Positions 3,965 through 41,464 of a stretch of 48,190 bases of DNA are shown one piece after another (positions within the stretch are counted from its first letter, which is position 1; the number at the start of each line of letters is the position of its first letter). Origin of the DNA: Chloroflexota bacterium. GTDB lineage: Bacteria > Chloroflexota > Anaerolineae > Anaerolineales > Villigracilaceae. Location of the stretch: positions 1 to 48,190 of the forward strand of contig JAPLGS010000086.1 in assembly GCA_026390015.1 (NCBI GenBank), read 5' to 3'. The notes beneath the pieces were generated by a model. That model worked only from the letters and a program-made list of their open reading frames with translations. It searched no databases and was not told the origin of the DNA. A program made the translations under genes and the position numbers.

Positions 3965-3988
3965 CATTATAACGGAATCAATTTTCGG

Positions 3989-5005
3989 CTAGGGCAGAAG
4001 TGAGGCGTTGACAGAGTCTGCATAAGAAACATCAGCCGTCAACATTCCTTTTCCTTTTGCCCATTCCAAAGCATCATTCCATTCCGCTTCAGTGGGAACG
4101 GCCTGATCAGGAAAAGGCGGGACTTGAAAAGTTTTCAGCAATGGCGGCGGGACGAGTCCCTTGTCGCTCAAGAGCGAAGTGTATTTGCTGGAATCAAGAT
4201 TGATGAGATCGGCGGCTTCTTCGATCGCGGCTAGAAATGCCTTGACCGCATTCGGGCTGGCGTCGATCACTTCCTTGCGAAATGAGATCACGCTGAAACC
4301 ATATTCAGGATGAAGCGAATCGTCGAGCACCTTGACCGCGCTTTGACTGATCGCGAGCGAGGCGAGTGGGTCGGGCAAAACGCCAGCGCTGAGTTTGCCA
4401 GAAGCAAGCAACGCCATGCGATCGGGAATTTTCGGTACGGCAATGGTCTTGATCTCATCAACTCTGAGCCCCTCGGATTGCAAAAGTCGCTCGGTTACAT
4501 ATTCGATCACCGTGCCTTGTGACACGCCGATCTCAATGCCCTTGAGGCCCTGCGCATCGGTGATGCCGCTTTTCGCTGATGCGAGAATGAAGAAATGTCC
4601 ATAGCCTTCGCTGGGTCTCAATGCATAACGTACCGCCTGCATTTGAATACCATCTTTATTGAACAGCATCACCGAAAGCGTTTCGTTAATGGTTCCGTCG
4701 GCTTGGCCTGCCGCCAGTAATTGATCACGTTCTGGCGCTGATGCAACGGGAATAAATTCAACCGTCACGCCGTGTTTTGCAAATAAACCTTCCGCTTCAG
4801 CGACATACATCGGAAGCGTATCAATGATCGGGAGGACTGCGATCTTCAGCGTGCCGACACTATTAACAGGCGCTTCAGTTGCGAGCTGCGTAGCTGAGTC
4901 AGCGACAGGAACATCAGTCGCAGGGACAGCCGTCTCCGCTGGCGCGCAGGCCGCGAGTAGTGTAACGAACAAAAGAACAAGTGATAGTGTGGCCCGAAAT
5001 TTCAT
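3989..5005 (-). CDS. ABC transporter substrate-binding lipoprotein, NMT1/SsuA-like
   Basis: Extracytoplasmic binding protein of 338 aa. A lipoprotein signal peptide ends in the lipobox LLAAC with the lipidated Cys at residue 20, then a Thr/Ala/Pro-rich linker to about residue 50. The mature domain begins TLKIAVLPIIDTLPMYVAEAEGLFAKHGV, the standard opening of the NMT1/THI5-like and SsuA-like type II binding fold, and contains the QLLAAGQADG and GVSQGTVIEY ligand-loop regions. It is the first gene of the importer. Because it follows an F420 block, a flavin, deazaflavin or pyrimidine precursor is a possible cargo, but sulfonates or other small molecules are equally possible. No FMN or TPP riboswitch-like structure was found in the roughly 100 bp upstream. 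Confidence 0.86.
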   Translation of the reverse strand: MKFRATLSLVLLFVTLLAACAPAETAVPATDVPVADSATQLATEAPVNSVGTLKIAVLPIIDTLPMYVAEAEGLFAKHGVTVEFIPVASAPERDQLLAAGQADGTINETLSVMLFNKDGIQMQAVRYALRPSEGYGHFFILASAKSGITDAQGLKGIEIGVSQGTVIEYVTERLLQSEGLRVDEIKTIAVPKIPDRMALLASGKLSAGVLPDPLASLAISQSAVKVLDDSLHPEYGFSVISFRKEVIDASPNAVKAFLAAIEEAADLINLDSSKYTSLLSDKGLVPPPLLKTFQVPPFPDQAVPTEAEWNDALEWAKGKGMLTADVSYADSVNASLLP

Positions 5006-5060: not shown

Positions 5061-5093
5061 AGACCTCGGAGGTTTTCAAAACCTCCGAGGTCT
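5061..5093. terminator. 33-nt palindrome, likely terminator of the LLM gene
   Basis: A perfect 16-bp inverted repeat around a single central base, built as AGACC, five variable bases, GGTTTTCAAAACC, five complementary bases, GGTCT. It lies after the stop of the minus-strand LLM gene and before the binding-protein gene. A sister copy with the same frame but different variable bases is at 38484-38516. Confidence 0.7.
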
Positions 5094-5107: not shown

Positions 5108-6106
5108 CTAACTCTGTGCGAACGTGTCGATCAGCAGCTTGAAATTTCCGCCGACTGGGTACAGAATGGGGCAGGTACATCCACGCTTGGTGTATTCGGC
5201 TACTTTGGCGCGTGCCTCTGCGGGCGTGCCCGAAGCCGTGATCTTGTGAACCAATTCGTCTGGGACAAAATGCTTGGCTTTGTTGATCTGTTCCTTCGTG
5301 GCGGGCCATCCCAAAGTGGACTGGATGTTGTTGATGACTTCTTGCGAAACATTCGAAGCCTTCGCGATGTGCGGCTGTTGGGCGAGATACTGGCAAAGCA
5401 ATTCTTTGGTGTACTCGATCGCCTTATCGTGATCTTCATCCACCGAACACACGATTAACTGCGGACGGTCAATGTCTTCGATTTTCCGCCCAGCTTTATT
5501 CGCGCCTTTTTCAAGCAGTTCCAACGCTTTGTCATTATATTCAGGCGCGACGCAATAATTCATCACACAGCCATCCGCGATCTCGCCTGTCATTTCCATC
5601 ATCAAATCGCCAGTCGCGCCGATCATGATAGGGACGTTGCGCGGCTCGCGGCGGCCATGGACTACATCCAATTCAATGCCGTCTACGTGATGGAATTCGC
5701 CGTGAAATGTGACGCGTTCCATATTTAACAATCGCCGCATGACTTCGACGGTCTCGCGCATGGCGAGAAGCGGTTTCTTTCGGTCAATGCCAACATTCTT
5801 TGCTAGTGGATCCCACCAGGCGCCAATTCCGCAGATAACGCGGTTTGGCGCAAGATCATCCAAAGTTAGGAAAGTGGCGGCGAGCAGGCCAATGTTCCGA
5901 GTCCAGTTATTGATCACGCCAGAGCCGACTTTAATTTTATTTGTCACTGCCGCGTAAGCCGCCATTGGCACTATCGCGTCGCGCACCAAACGACTCTCAG
6001 CTTGCCAAACAGCTTCAAAGCCTTTCTCTTCTGCGTATCTTGCATAATCCATTCCATCACGCAGGTCGTGTGAATCTTGCAGGTAAAGGGCAACACGTTC
6101 GGTCAT
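5108..6106 (-). CDS. LLM-class (F420-dependent) oxidoreductase
   Basis: A 332-aa luciferase-like monooxygenase-family protein with a TIM-barrel fold. Related members are methylenetetrahydromethanopterin reductase (Mer) and F420-dependent glucose-6-phosphate dehydrogenases. Supporting features are the opening [10 protein letters not shown], the [19 protein letters not shown] segment, [14 protein letters not shown] with the family's non-prolyl-cis bulge region, and [20 protein letters not shown] chose the ATG at 6106 because AAGGAG stands about 6 nt before it; the frame is open 87 nt upstream through repeat-like sequence. Location at the end of the F420 gene block supports F420 rather than FMN. 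The substrate is unknown. Confidence 0.85.
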
Positions 6107-6130
6107 GATTTTCTCCTTGAAATAAATTAA

Positions 6131-6166
6131 ATGTTCTTGCGAGAAGTGAGCGGCGAAGCAACCTCC
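6131..6166. repeat. Diverged copy of the dispersed palindromic repeat
   Basis: On the minus strand this reads GGAGGTTGCTTCG, a 10-nt middle, CTCGCAAGAACAT. It matches the repeat at 2389-2428 at both ends with a few changes. It fills the gap between cofC and the LLM gene. The cofC-proximal part of the gap (6167-6209) is rich in GCTTCGCGC and has no gene. Confidence 0.5.
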
Positions 6167-6209
6167 ATTACAACAGAAGAGGGCTTCGCGCAAAGCGCTC
6201 GCGGGGACA

Positions 6210-28039: not shown

Positions 28040-28403
28040 TGTAACTATACCCATAAAGTGGCCGCTTTTTCCACTTTATGGGTATAGAGGGGATATTTTG
28101 AAAATGGCACTATCTCAAAAAGCTCATTCGATAAGTCGAAATTGTTGATCATTTCTCCAAACGGACTTCGAGAAATACTGTTCTGTATTCTTATGAACGC
28201 AGAATGTAATTTTGCTAAGTTTTCGCTGTGTTTTGGGCGGAAAATGAGGCATAAACTTTCGGCCACTTTATGCTTCCAGAATTTACTGGCGGCCAAGTTA
28301 TGGTTCCAGTTAGATCACGATCTATTAATTTTTCCATTCAAAGCAGGCTAAAATGCGGTCACTTTATGCTTCCAGGCGTGGCCATTTTATGGGTAAAGTC
28401 ACA
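28040..28403. mobile_element. 364-bp non-autonomous element with terminal inverted repeats (IS21-like ends)
   Basis: The left end starts TGTAACTATACCCATAAA and the right end, read on the other strand, TGTGACTTTACCCATAAA; the two termini match at about 21 of 24 positions and begin TG and end CA. Inside are repeated motifs GGCCACTTTATGCTTCCAG (28261-28279), GGCCAAGTTATGGTTCCAG (28291-28309) and GGTCACTTTATGCTTCCAG (28357-28375). Several subterminal copies of a ~20-bp site are typical of IS21-family ends. No transposase is encoded, so this is a deletion derivative or MITE-like relic. I could not identify a target-site duplication. Family assignment is tentative. Confidence 0.65.
28045..28087. 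repeat. Perfect 17-bp inverted repeat in the left end of the element
   Basis: CTATACCCATAAAGTGG (28045-28061) and its exact complement (28071-28087) surround a 9-nt loop CCGCTTTTT. The right arm contains the same core as the internal repeats, so it is a second transposase-type site in opposite orientation. Confidence 0.8.
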
Positions 28404-32229: not shown

Positions 32230-32262
32230 AAACGGGAGCGCCATTGACCGGCGCTCCCGTTT
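32230..32262 (-). terminator. Strong terminator after rpsT
   Basis: AAACGGGAGCGCC (32230-32242) pairs with GGCGCTCCCGTTT (32250-32262) around a 7-nt loop; the minus strand continues TTATTTCCC. It lies 26 nt after the rpsT stop. Confidence 0.88.
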
Positions 32263-33555: not shown

Positions 33556-33681
33556 GGACTGATTCCTTATTATTAATAAAGCGATTTTTAGAGGCGCTTT
33601 CTATATCGTATCGCATTTTGAGTACTGAAAAGAATTCTACCTGAAAATACGGGCTTGTGCGTGAGCGCTTTTCACGCCAAA

Positions 33682-33712
33682 AGTCGAAGGTGATTGACTT
33701 TCACCTTCGACT
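33682..33712. terminator. Terminator after uvrA, probably bidirectional
   Basis: AGTCGAAGGTGA (33682-33693) pairs with TCACCTTCGACT (33701-33712); T-rich sequence follows on both sides. It directly follows the uvrA stop at 33717. Confidence 0.85.
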
Positions 33713-33716
33713 TTTT

Positions 33717-38200: not shown

Positions 38201-38476
38201 ATGACGAAACGTAAGCAGACGGTTACCCCTGAAGAAAAATTGGAAGCTCTTGAATCGCATCTGGCTGTAACTTTGAAGCCGGTCACGCCTTCGAAAGAGA
38301 TTGTCCAGCGCCTGAGAGCGCGCATCCATATGCCGGCGCGGGATGAAATAATATTGCGCCTGAGCGATTGGCGCAGATTGTTCCTTGTCTTTGGCGGAGT
38401 GCTTTCGGGGATGATGTTATTGATCACGATCGCGCGTGCTTTTTATTATCTGGTTGGCCGTAGAGATCCGATGTAA
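38201..38476 (+). CDS. Small protein with one transmembrane helix
   Basis: A 91-aa protein, 6 nt after degV. It has a basic soluble N-terminal part (about 1-58, MTKRKQTVTPEEKLEALE...) and a hydrophobic helix at about 59-80 (LFLVFGGVLSGMMLLITIARAFYYL). It lies third in the sigma-degV operon; an anti-sigma or membrane partner role is possible but no anti-sigma motif (such as HxxxCxxC) is present. Function unknown. Confidence 0.7.
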   Translation: MTKRKQTVTPEEKLEALESHLAVTLKPVTPSKEIVQRLRARIHMPARDEIILRLSDWRRLFLVFGGVLSGMMLLITIARAFYYLVGRRDPM

Positions 38477-38483
38477 AGAAGAA

Positions 38484-38516
38484 AGACCCGAAAGGTTTTC
38501 AAAACCTTTCGGGTCT
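38484..38516. terminator. 33-nt palindrome, bidirectional terminator
   Basis: A perfect 16-bp inverted repeat around a single base, AGACC, CGAAA, GGTTTTCAAAACC, TTTCG, GGTCT; the complementarity extends by 2 more bp on each side. T-runs follow in both directions, between two convergent genes. Sister copy at 5061-5093 with different variable bases. Confidence 0.9.
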
Positions 38517-38523
38517 TTTTGAT

Positions 38524-38853
38524 TTAAGACGAAGTCGTCAGCCAGTTGCACAAAATCCGCGCTTCGGCGATCAGGTCTGCATCCATGGGGAGGGTGAATT
38601 CTTCAGTGACTCGGACTGTCAAGTGGTCAGCGATCAACTTTAGGTTGGCGGGGATGAGCTCATCTTCCTTAAGTAGATTCAGCAGGTCGTAGGCACTCAT
38701 GCTTGGGACTTTTGTCCCGTTGCGGGTCAGGTAATCCCGTATCGCAATGCCCGCTGCGCGCCGCGCACAAACGCGGGCTTGCCCCTCGTTTTTTTTGATG
38801 CGGGCCTGTTGGGCTTTATCAAATTCTTGTTGGAGTGAATATTTTATATCCAT
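38524..38853 (-). CDS. Small helical protein, HEPN-like
   Basis: A 109-aa alpha-helical protein. KAQQARIKKNEGQARVCARRAAGIAIRDYLTRNG and AYDLLNLLKEDELI, with a C-terminal ADLIAEARILCNWL, resemble small HEPN-fold proteins, but the catalytic R-x(4-6)-H motif of RNase HEPN proteins is not seen. It may be a structural or partner HEPN protein. The ATG at 38853 is preferred; an in-frame ATG 12 nt upstream sits on the -10 box. Confident as a gene, weak as a family call. Confidence 0.6.
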   Translation of the reverse strand: MDIKYSLQQEFDKAQQARIKKNEGQARVCARRAAGIAIRDYLTRNGTKVPSMSAYDLLNLLKEDELIPANLKLIADHLTVRVTEEFTLPMDADLIAEARILCNWLTTSS

Positions 38854-38863
38854 GATTCCATGC

Positions 38864-38871
38864 ATTATAAT
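38864..38871. promoter_or_regulatory. Palindromic ATTATAAT, shared -10 box for two divergent genes
   Basis: ATTATAAT reads the same on both strands, giving TATAAT toward the HEPN-like gene (10 nt to its ATG) and TATAAT toward the S41 protease gene (26 nt to its ATG). Confidence 0.5.
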
Positions 38872-38897
38872 CGCTAAAAAATTCAGACGAGGTAAAC

Positions 38898-41411
38898 ATG
38901 AAAACTCGATCGTTCCAAATTTTTGCGTCCATAATGATATTGTGCATGGCAATTGTGGCATGCGCGCCGAAACTGGAGACAACCAAGCTTACGCCAGTTC
39001 CTACAACAGTACCTATCGCTGTTACCGCGGCGGATGACAGTGGCCCGAAGACGGTTACCGGTACTTTGACTTATACCAATACCTTCTTTACTGACGGGGT
39101 TGCAGAGCCGGTGATTATTCTTGAAGATCAGGGCGGATTTGTAACCCGCGACCGCAAGTTCCTGATCCCTGTTGAGTCGCAGGTGATCGGCGAGATCACT
39201 TCAGATTTTTACACATCGCCTTTCACTTATAGCTTGTCGCTTCCTTCAAAACCGAATGGCACCTTGCATGATGTTAATCATGATGGCGTCGATCAAGCTG
39301 GTGTGATGGTCTTTGCTGTGGCCTATTGGACGAACACTTGGGGCGATCCATTTCTGGAGCGTCGCGATCAAGGCGGCGGCGGTTGGTCGAGCGCGTATGC
39401 TTCCACAAAAATCACCGATGATCCTAAATTTTATCTTGAAGTTACGGGAGGTAAATATCTGGTTTATGCGCCAGATGGTCAACAACAATTCCCATCCGGA
39501 TTTGGTGCTGATAAAAAATTATTCACCGATGATGACCCGATCATGGATCTGGCTGCGGGCTGGTCAATGATCAATATGGATCAATCTCCATTTTTAATTG
39601 ATCGCTCAGAAAATCCGACCATTGAACTCATCGAACCGGAAAGCGTCGCGCTGGTGGATTTCTCAGGGCTTTCCTACACCAAAGCGTTTGACGGCATGGC
39701 TGAAAAATTCAAGAATGAATATGCCTTCACGGATTTAAAGAAAATTGACTGGGATGCCAAATCCGCGGAATTCCGTCCGCGCTTTGTAGAGGCCGAGAAG
39801 AATAAAGATAAACATGCGTACGCGCTTGCATTACGCGATTTTCTGTGGTCAATCCCTGATACCCATGTGGGCTATAGCACCGACTTGCTGGACAAAGATT
39901 TTTCAGAGGAAATAGCTGGCGGACTGGGTTTTGCTATGCGTGAAACAGATGACGGCAAAATCATCGCGAACTTTGTTTTGGGTGGCGGCCCTGCAGCGGC
40001 CGCTGGCATGACCTGGGGAGCTGAGATCATTTCCATCGACGGAGTATCAACCACTGATGTGGTTGAGAAGGTGGTTCCATGGTCGTCTCCGTTCAGTAAT
40101 ACGGAGATCAAGCGTTTGCAGCAATTACGTTATGCGACCCGCTTCAAGATGGATAAGGGCCAGGTTGAAGTTAAGTTTAAGAATGTTGGCGGCGCTGAGA
40201 AGACCGCGAAGCTGGAAGTTGTCAACGAATTTGACAGCTGGAATTTTTCATCCTTCCGCAGAGGCGTTGATGCGGAAGCTCTGCCAGTTGAATTTGATTT
40301 ATTGCCAAGCGGTTATGGTTACATCAAGATATCCAGCTTTTTGGATAACGATGTCCTTTCCATTCAAGTCTGGGAACGTGCCATCAAGTATTTCAATGAT
40401 AATAAGGTGCCCGGCGTGATCCTTGACCTTCGCAATAATGGCGGAGGCAGCGGCTGGCTGGCCGATCAAATGGCCGCGTACTTCTTCGATAAAGAGATCA
40501 TCGTTGGCAATAGTTCTCAATACAATAAAATCACCGGCGAGTTCTATACGGACCCGGGCGGCGAGGCTATTATGCTCCCTCCGCGAGCCGACCTTCAATA
40601 CAGCGGACCGGTGGTTGTAATGGTTGGACCCTCTTGTGCCAGTGCCTGTGAATTCTTCTCTTATAACATGACGATCAATGACCGCGCCACGATTGTCGGA
40701 CAGTACCCAAGCGATGGCGCAGGCGGAAGTGTTGAAGATTTCTCGATGCCCGAAGCTATCACTGTCCAAATAACGATTGGCCGCGCAGTGGATGCTGAAG
40801 GGAACATCCACCTTGAAGGCAAGGGCGTTGTACCTGATGTTCGTGTCCTGGTTACGGCAGAGACACTCCAAAAATTAGCGAATGGCGAAGATGTAGTTCT
40901 TGCCGCCGCTGAGAAAGTGATCAGCGAACCGCAAGGCGCAGGTGTGACTCCCTCCGGGCCTCCGGAAATGGCAAGCGCCGCCGCTGCATCCTCCGCACTG
41001 ACATCGGGTAAAAGTTATCTCGAAGATCTGGCTCGTGAAAAATACGTGGCCGCTGATTTTGGTGCGCCCGGCTCACTAGCTTACACCATTCCACTCACCA
41101 AGACCGACACGTTGGTGTGGATGTACGCGTGGTGTACCAAGTCAACCGATATCCTCAATCAGAATTTTAAGAACATCGAATTAAAATTTGCAATGGATGG
41201 AGAGAATATTCCCCTGGACAAATTCAAGACCGAAGATTTGGAAAGCGGAGGCCAGCAATGCCGGTTGTATTACACCGCTTTGAGCAAATGGCCTGCCGGT
41301 GAACATCACTTAAGCACCACCGCCACCTTCAAAACCTCAATCAATGATGGGTCGGCTGATTACGCGCCTGGTGACTATATCCTTGATTATGCGGTGTACT
41401 TGAAGCCGTAA
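38898..41411 (+). CDS. S41-family (C-terminal processing) peptidase lipoprotein
   Basis: An 837-aa exported serine protease. A lipoprotein signal peptide ends AIVACAPK with the Cys at about residue 22. The large N-terminal region (about 45-230) is beta-rich and of unknown fold. A tail-specific-protease N-terminal helical stretch is followed by a PDZ-like region (GLGFAMRETDDGKIIANFVLGGGPAAAAGM... about 345-390). The protease core includes GVILDLRNNGGGSGWLADQMAAYFF and the nucleophile Ser582 in GPSCASACEFF. The C-terminal 150 residues form another beta domain. ATG at 38898 has GAGGT upstream. Substrate unknown. Confidence 0.85.
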   Translation: MKTRSFQIFASIMILCMAIVACAPKLETTKLTPVPTTVPIAVTAADDSGPKTVTGTLTYTNTFFTDGVAEPVIILEDQGGFVTRDRKFLIPVESQVIGEITSDFYTSPFTYSLSLPSKPNGTLHDVNHDGVDQAGVMVFAVAYWTNTWGDPFLERRDQGGGGWSSAYASTKITDDPKFYLEVTGGKYLVYAPDGQQQFPSGFGADKKLFTDDDPIMDLAAGWSMINMDQSPFLIDRSENPTIELIEPESVALVDFSGLSYTKAFDGMAEKFKNEYAFTDLKKIDWDAKSAEFRPRFVEAEKNKDKHAYALALRDFLWSIPDTHVGYSTDLLDKDFSEEIAGGLGFAMRETDDGKIIANFVLGGGPAAAAGMTWGAEIISIDGVSTTDVVEKVVPWSSPFSNTEIKRLQQLRYATRFKMDKGQVEVKFKNVGGAEKTAKLEVVNEFDSWNFSSFRRGVDAEALPVEFDLLPSGYGYIKISSFLDNDVLSIQVWERAIKYFNDNKVPGVILDLRNNGGGSGWLADQMAAYFFDKEIIVGNSSQYNKITGEFYTDPGGEAIMLPPRADLQYSGPVVVMVGPSCASACEFFSYNMTINDRATIVGQYPSDGAGGSVEDFSMPEAITVQITIGRAVDAEGNIHLEGKGVVPDVRVLVTAETLQKLANGEDVVLAAAEKVISEPQGAGVTPSGPPEMASAAAASSALTSGKSYLEDLAREKYVAADFGAPGSLAYTIPLTKTDTLVWMYAWCTKSTDILNQNFKNIELKFAMDGENIPLDKFKTEDLESGGQQCRLYYTALSKWPAGEHHLSTTATFKTSINDGSADYAPGDYILDYAVYLKP

Positions 41412-41439: not shown

Positions 41440-41464
41440 AAGACGGGCGCTCAGCGCCCGTCTT
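41440..41464. terminator. Bidirectional terminator between S41 and GT2 genes
   Basis: AAGACGGGC pairs with GCCCGTCTT around GCTCAGC. It lies between the convergent stops at 41411 and 41470 and ends in TTTATG on the plus side and TTATTTTTATC on the minus side. Confidence 0.85.

Follow-up and report, generated by a model that had tools for sequence, protein, structure and literature searches.

REPIN-like palindromes without a GTAG foot and their probable RAYT partners, viewed from a Chloroflexota contig

Palindromes and Neighboring Genes

The window (the whole 48,190-nt stretch of contig JAPLGS010000086.1 that was analyzed) contains two 33-nt palindromes that match the frame AGACC-N5-GGTTTTCAAAACC-N5-GGTCT exactly, with arms of 16 bp around one central base (Table 1), as a first-pass annotation of the DNA had described. 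They are the only sites in the window that fit this frame with up to three mismatches (on the opposite strand each has one mismatch, at the center base), and 100 dinucleotide shuffles of the window gave no frame match. Folded as single-stranded DNA, the two copies form one hairpin each (-16.2 and -16.8 kcal/mol), whereas three single units reach only -1.7 to -3.7 kcal/mol. Several window genes are colinear with a Chloroflexi contig (L042), the longest stretch having 76% DNA identity. The true start of the ORF that converges on palindrome 2 is probably further in, because its upstream part overlaps an ORF at 38898.

Table 1. Palindromes, adjacent genes, and other inverted repeats of the window.
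Feature	Position	Strand	Description
Palindrome 1	5061-5093		N5 = TCGGA/TCCGA; two inverted 15-nt units with a short center between them
Palindrome 2	38484-38516		N5 = CGAAA/TTTCG; flanked by two convergent stop codons; TTTTT after it
Bac_luciferase gene	5108..6193	-	Pfam assignment; stop codon 14 nt ahead of palindrome 1
NMT1_2 gene (binding-protein type)	3989..5005	-	Pfam assignment; downstream of palindrome 1
Small ORF (91 aa)	38201..38476	+	ends 7 nt ahead of palindrome 2; ORF kept in relatives; Pfam search without matches
Convergent ORF	38524..38982	-	ends 7 nt past palindrome 2; Pfam search without matches
Inverted repeat	33679-33715		outside the family; T-rich tail, shorter or longer loop; ordinary terminator-like
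Inverted repeat	32230-32262		as for 33679-33715
Inverted repeat	41440-41464		as for 33679-33715
Inverted repeat	28045-28087		perfect 17-nt repeat, 9-nt loop; unrelated to the 33-nt family

A Covarying Repeat Family

The window's genome (4.31 Mb) carries five exact copies of the frame, six with the center base free, and none of the pattern read backwards; further variants appear when the core is relaxed. A scan of one genome per species gave at least 122 copies in at least 117 loci from several phyla, so the family is not limited to the two copies of the window. Copy numbers in ten genomes chosen from the listed loci are 38, 2, 3, 26, 1, 11, 5, 29, 1, and 6, against a control count of 0 throughout. 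The distribution is patchy: within the window's class (249 genomes), 39 have the palindrome, and in a sample of five genus mates, three do.

The first-pass annotation noted that the differences between the two N5 blocks preserve pairing, and this extends to the family. Among the 122 matches listed, the N5 blocks have no mismatch in 100, one in 17, two in four, and three in one; the 53 distinct N5 pairs are complementary at a mean of 4.53 of five positions (34 perfect), vs. 2.41 in 2000 partner shuffles (maximum 2.85). The constancy of the ends and core in this sample of at least 122 copies is by construction, because the search pattern fixes both. Among relatives reached through RAYT proteins, ends and core vary as well.

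Association With RAYT Genes

When the open frames of the at least 117 listed loci were clustered with function ignored, the palindromes proved to be a focus of a single family, a Y1 transposase with nine frames, all from Bacteroidota. Eight of these lie 0-142 nt from, or overlap, an exact copy, and under a looser search each of the nine has a related palindrome beside or within it. The motifs NHFH and YIHxNP occur in nearly all of the 30 class loci described below, and GSLF[QE]xPFxR is also typical; the HUH and catalytic Tyr motifs are thus present in a Y1 fold, as in RAYT/TnpA_REP proteins. A sequence search of solved structures has TnpA_REP (4er8) as its single match (E 1.3e-6), and an AlphaFold2 model (mean pLDDT 86.9) has 4er8 as top fold match (E 4.5e-8), followed by IS200/IS605-type transposases. 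The NCBIfam model REP_Tyr_transpos matches eight of eight proteins, but the score shown, 51 bits, is below the cut-off of 80. Phe occupies the place of W94 of the foot-bearing subclasses; since the role of W94 is called unclear in the accessible text of Quentin 2018 (PMC6006769), we take this as a correlate and not as proof. As for other neighboring genes considered as partners, response regulators and ABC ATPases recur (named by eye), but at scattered distances.

The nine frames come from loci picked via the palindrome; as an independent test, a profile (A1) of eight of the nine Y1 proteins was searched in the 249 genomes of the window's class, of which 124 match at 1e-5; loci from the best 30 of these 124 were examined. 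Outside the class, 24 palindrome-bearing genomes were hand-chosen among the listed loci; 17 match at 1e-10 and contribute 30 loci, 17 with a score of at least 100 and 13 with lower scores (distant RAYTs). Under a strict rule (arms of at least 14, at most one mismatch, 29-46 nt overall, within 200 nt of the RAYT gene or inside it), a palindrome is found at 26 of the 30 class loci (on both sides in 20, inside in 19), at 11 of the 17 higher-scoring outside loci, and at one of the 13 lower-scoring ones, a broken gene; control windows have one palindrome in 28 of 274 and two in 0 of 274. Beyond the class, strict hits come from Geobacteraceae, Venteria, Methylobacter, Thioploca, Thiotrichaceae, Leptolyngbyaceae, Chloroflexi, Gelidibacter, and Mucilaginibacter. 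A wider rule, which accepts inverted unit pairs with spacers of up to 80 nt beside or inside the gene and raises the control rate too, is satisfied by 30/30 class loci, 15/17 higher-scoring outside loci (where the pairs at L233 and L250 are unrepeated and may be due to chance), 1/13 distant RAYTs, and 60/269 controls; two or more pairs occur at 29, 10, 1, and 5 of these, respectively. The control rates err on the high side, because part of the control windows lie in loci that had been selected for sites of this kind. Copies upstream of the RAYT gene are often 33-39 nt ahead of the start of the match and those downstream 38-63 nt past its end, and copies inside RAYT genes lie between the HuH and Tyr motifs.

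Across the window's class, a strong RAYT (E up to 2.2e-46) is present in 43 genomes, 18 of which have the palindrome; among the 206 remaining genomes, 21 have it (odds ratio 6.3, p 3e-6; genome lists compiled by hand). Several observations count against the link: 21 of the 39 palindrome-bearing class genomes are without a strong RAYT, seven of the 24 chosen palindrome-bearing genomes are without a RAYT match at 1e-10, and Desulfonema magnum has 38 copies, yet its sole RAYT is distant and without palindromes. A search of the window's genome (95% complete) for a RAYT of the clade found none. Single assignments may be wrong, because several of these genomes are MAGs.

Dialects and Anatomy of the Element

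Copies around one RAYT resemble each other, and copies of different RAYTs differ, with other stems in the same layout (AGATTGGACCAATCT, AGCGCCTAACGCGCT, AAGGTTGCCAACCTT). The ends and core that the first-pass annotation regarded as fixed belong to one dialect, and it is the layout that other RAYTs have in common with it. In a tree of 59 proteins, in which 54 stronger rows separate from five weak ones (100/94), well-supported sister RAYTs have a common dialect: AGCGCC for L165/L167, AGATTGG and AGATTTG for L175/L179, the AAGGTTG type for L176/L180, and AGGAC for L168/L169. In Mucilaginibacter arboris, TATAA is on the left arm in 26 of 26 copies (22 perfect), and a remnant RAYT with ten stops has the TATAA dialect on one flank and a different palindrome on the other. 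RAYT loci of the window's genus (L177, L178) bear AGACCCTAAGGGTTT and AGACCTGACAGGTTT units, and L238, a RAYT in the genome of the colinear Chloroflexi contig L042, has the palindrome 1 dialect on its flanks.

The arms are dyads in their own right: over 86 distinct arms, the mean is 4.66 of six Watson-Crick pairs (best of four registers), whereas shuffled arms reach 2.73 (maximum 3.03) and a set of 16 other palindromes 3.0. The blocks described as fixed are thus inner stems, and N5 is their loop. Inverted unit pairs with spacers of 33-66 nt occupy the three usual positions around the RAYT gene at L177 and L178, and pairs with spacers of up to 80 nt occur at L168 and L169; the 33-mer is best understood as a pair of this kind whose spacer has nearly disappeared. 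With dyad arms, and with spaced inverted pairs at L177 and L178, the elements have the two inverted REP units that define a REPIN. No 5' GT[AG]G foot was found at the hairpin, as nothing is conserved beyond the palindrome: all outside positions have at most 0.6 bit save one adjoining base in the set of inside copies. On the uptake-signal idea, a strict test leaves 58 of 208 half-sites without a close inverted partner, mostly RAYT-locus arms of mixed or spaced pairs. At L168, AGGACTGACAGTCCT units stand in a row beside the RAYT gene, about 80 nt apart.

Genomic Placement and Orthologous Sites

By a simple ORF rule, the 122 matches listed comprise 51 in tandem gaps, 26 in convergent gaps, seven in divergent gaps, 19 inside ORFs, and 19 at locus ends (unclassed); the background of 316 other gaps of at least 40 nt comprises 202 tandem, 40 convergent, and 74 divergent gaps. 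The idea that copies always sit at gene 3' ends is often borne out, but fails for the divergent and intragenic copies. Seventeen of the 122 matches listed have 60 or more codons of open frame to either side, and in 13 of these the frame reads DLxGFENLxGL or close to it; two of the 17 (L052, L125) are in RAYT genes. A Pfam scan of 10 of the 17 places the insert within the matched domain in four: a type ISP specificity domain (L068), the HATPase_c domains of two histidine kinases (L076, L078), and an Eco57I methylase (L084).

Twelve relatives have both neighbors of palindrome 2. One (G266) has an identical copy; three (G274, G259, G262) have related palindromes with N5 or ends changed; six have other hairpins (by detector); one (G265) has an imperfect hairpin (by eye); and in one (G267) the arms are split by an insert, which in L191 is about 70-80 nt. 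Behind the same gene as palindrome 1, the identical 33 nt recur in G266, G267, and the Chloroflexi locus L042, while 12 other relatives have a different hairpin (eight) or none by the detector (four). A further copy in the window's genome (C150:78881; L199, gap 3968-4031) lies between genes for a PnrA-like binding protein and an ABC ATPase. All 14 loci with both genes, its own included, have a hairpin in this gap (13 by detector, one by eye); these include three 33-nt palindromes and one 31-nt palindrome of different sequences. For comparison, a hairpin with arms of at least nine is present in six of 22 window gaps of 40-200 nt. At C66:172278, the palindrome occurs in its own genome only, among nine loci with both genes; the gap is 62 nt with it vs. 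33 nt (G265) and 40 nt (G263) without, and the insertion ends are unreadable because the loci are too diverged. We read the orthologous sites as gain and replacement of hairpins where a hairpin is useful. They resemble the REP after malE of E. coli.

Interpretation and Rival Explanations

Given the computed family with its covariation, RAYT association over phyla, dialect match, inner dyad, and missing foot, the palindromes are very probably compact REPIN-like repeats of one clade of RAYT/TnpA_REP proteins, which are HUH-Y1 single-strand nucleases; each repeat has two inverted 15-nt REP units around a short center. Like REPs, they are repeated, mostly extragenic palindromes tied to a RAYT gene. 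The RAYT would recognize and cut the hairpin on single-stranded DNA and so spread it; cutting of this kind has been published for E. coli TnpA_REP, as far as the accessible text describes it. Copies in the window's genome may be leftovers, or may stem from a RAYT that was later lost or is missing from the assembly. Hosts would retain some copies for the effect of the hairpin in the transcript at a gene end, where it would stop transcription or shield the mRNA; the scattered copies are mostly just past stop codons, and their reuse as terminators or mRNA stabilizers is probable. We infer transposition of the palindromes; no movement was observed, and the orthologous sites, where presence vs. absence is between diverged loci, gave no exact insertion ends or target rule.

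A more far-reaching version is put forward tentatively, and we would sooner bet against it than for it. In it, a foot-less clade of RAYTs that occurs in several phyla would recognize a nested palindrome, with the inner dyad of the 15-nt unit replacing the GTAG guide; repeat and enzyme would drift together as dialects while the two-tier 33-nt shape is kept. The element could enter reading frames because 33 nt equals 11 codons and the common frame is stop-free, and hosts would repeatedly adopt copies of different dialects at the same operon hairpin position as portable terminators or mRNA stabilizers.

That the palindromes are instead ordinary intrinsic terminators, often bidirectional, whose sequence is common by chance, is improbable. 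Their placement does suit terminators: among the matches listed, the median distance from the closest stop codon upstream is 24 nt (n = 77), convergent gaps are over-represented (26/84 vs. 40/316 background gaps) and divergent ones under-represented (7/84 vs. 74/316), and most relatives have some hairpin at the sites of both window copies. The terminator role fits palindrome 2, with its convergent stops and T-run, but at least five T within the next 8 nt follow only 25% of the 122 matches listed, slightly above the 15% of random positions. Ordinary terminators would also not account for the concentration of palindromes at and inside RAYT genes, for the 17 copies within long open frames, or for a single architecture with many dialects in several phyla. 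The first-pass suggestion of something beyond a simple terminator is in this respect upheld by a covarying, structured family tied to a RAYT-type nuclease clade. Less probable still is a binding site of a dimeric host protein (a regulator, chromosome organizer, or uptake signal) that lies near RAYTs by chance. The gapped dyad ACCTNNNAGGT, present two times per element, would suit such a protein, but copies are few (1-38 in the ten genomes) and patchy (39/249 class genomes), promoter-side divergent gaps are under-represented, and the dialects track RAYT genes.

A different matter is how the N5 blocks came to be complementary. Template-switch correction of quasipalindromes occurs during replication, and could have produced the pairing by mutation and not by selection; we give this explanation roughly one chance in three. 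It is compatible with a RAYT origin of the repeats and opposes the selection for structure that the first-pass annotation had drawn from the covariation. The perfect arms even in the window's genome, which is without a RAYT of the clade, speak for such correction, whereas arm-to-arm correction alone leaves the inner dyad of each arm unexplained, and 22 of the 122 matches listed are imperfect. Covariation does not single out selection here, since complementary N5 blocks would also result from mutational correction of palindromes or from perfect elements being copied.

Relation to Known Systems

RAYTs, REPINs, tag-less TIRtrons, and REPs inside a transposase gene are already known. In the accessible text on the REP/REPIN systems of E. 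coli and the Pseudomonas REPtrons (PMC2817692, PMC8266576), short palindromes likewise occur at the RAYT gene and scattered intergenically, each RAYT has its own family, and units form inverted pairs; our protein also matches the fold of 4er8. The present elements differ from that description: they have no GTAG foot, the 33-nt palindrome is nearly perfect and contains an inner dyad, the protein has Phe at W94, and copies are usually fewer. The TIRYT genes of TIRtrons are RAYT-like and lie between inverted repeats that lack GTAG; as in our case, some of these repeats are self-complementary or "double palindromic" and some make up repeat families (Di Nocera 2013, accessible text; PMC3733652); their common motif GGGGWSAS differs from ours, and, as the comparison is with the text description, overlap is possible.

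Among the TnpA_REP subclasses, as the accessible text of Quentin 2018 describes them (PMC6006769), 2.4 has in-frame REPs inside the gene between HuH and Y and is scattered over phyla, as here, but it has WQ and GT[AG]G feet where ours has Phe for W and no foot, which places our clade outside 2.4 by description (not by profile). Subclass 2.6 is similar in occurring in Bacteroidetes, in lacking GT[AG]G, and in its "atypical secondary structures," although those structures are weaker. The motif list is nearest to that of subclass 2.1 (NH[YF]H, FQ, Y[IV]HLNP, SS), for which that text reports no REPs found. Taken together, the missing foot, Phe in place of Trp, the nested 33-nt palindrome, and the many dialects across phyla fit none of the descriptions in the accessible text, and the clade may have been listed earlier in figures or supplements; a literature text search with short strings of the repeat gave, among the matches listed, titles that look unrelated. 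A tag-less family is easily missed, because REP elements have been collected largely by a GTAG or CGTC tag. Its many matched enzyme-repeat pairs in different dialects could be used to test how a single-strand nuclease locates its hairpin when a guide tetranucleotide is missing, and the orthologous sites show gene-end hairpins appearing, vanishing, and being swapped.

Other Y1 Proteins and a Fused Frame

The eight Y1_Tnp hits of the window's genome were considered as partners and set aside: they are IS200-like or fragments, and the family palindrome is absent within 1.5 kb on each side of each hit. Three of the eight (L146, L148, and L150, on C68, C16, and C113) score above the Pfam cut-off for Y1_Tnp, and the HuH motif is absent by eye; they look like non-catalytic, domesticated relatives, and at L148 the domain forms the end of a 544-aa frame. 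At two Flavobacteriaceae-type loci (L056:5712-7184 and L100:2-1471), a stop-free palindrome fuses the end of the RAYT frame to a HemF-like frame (by eye).
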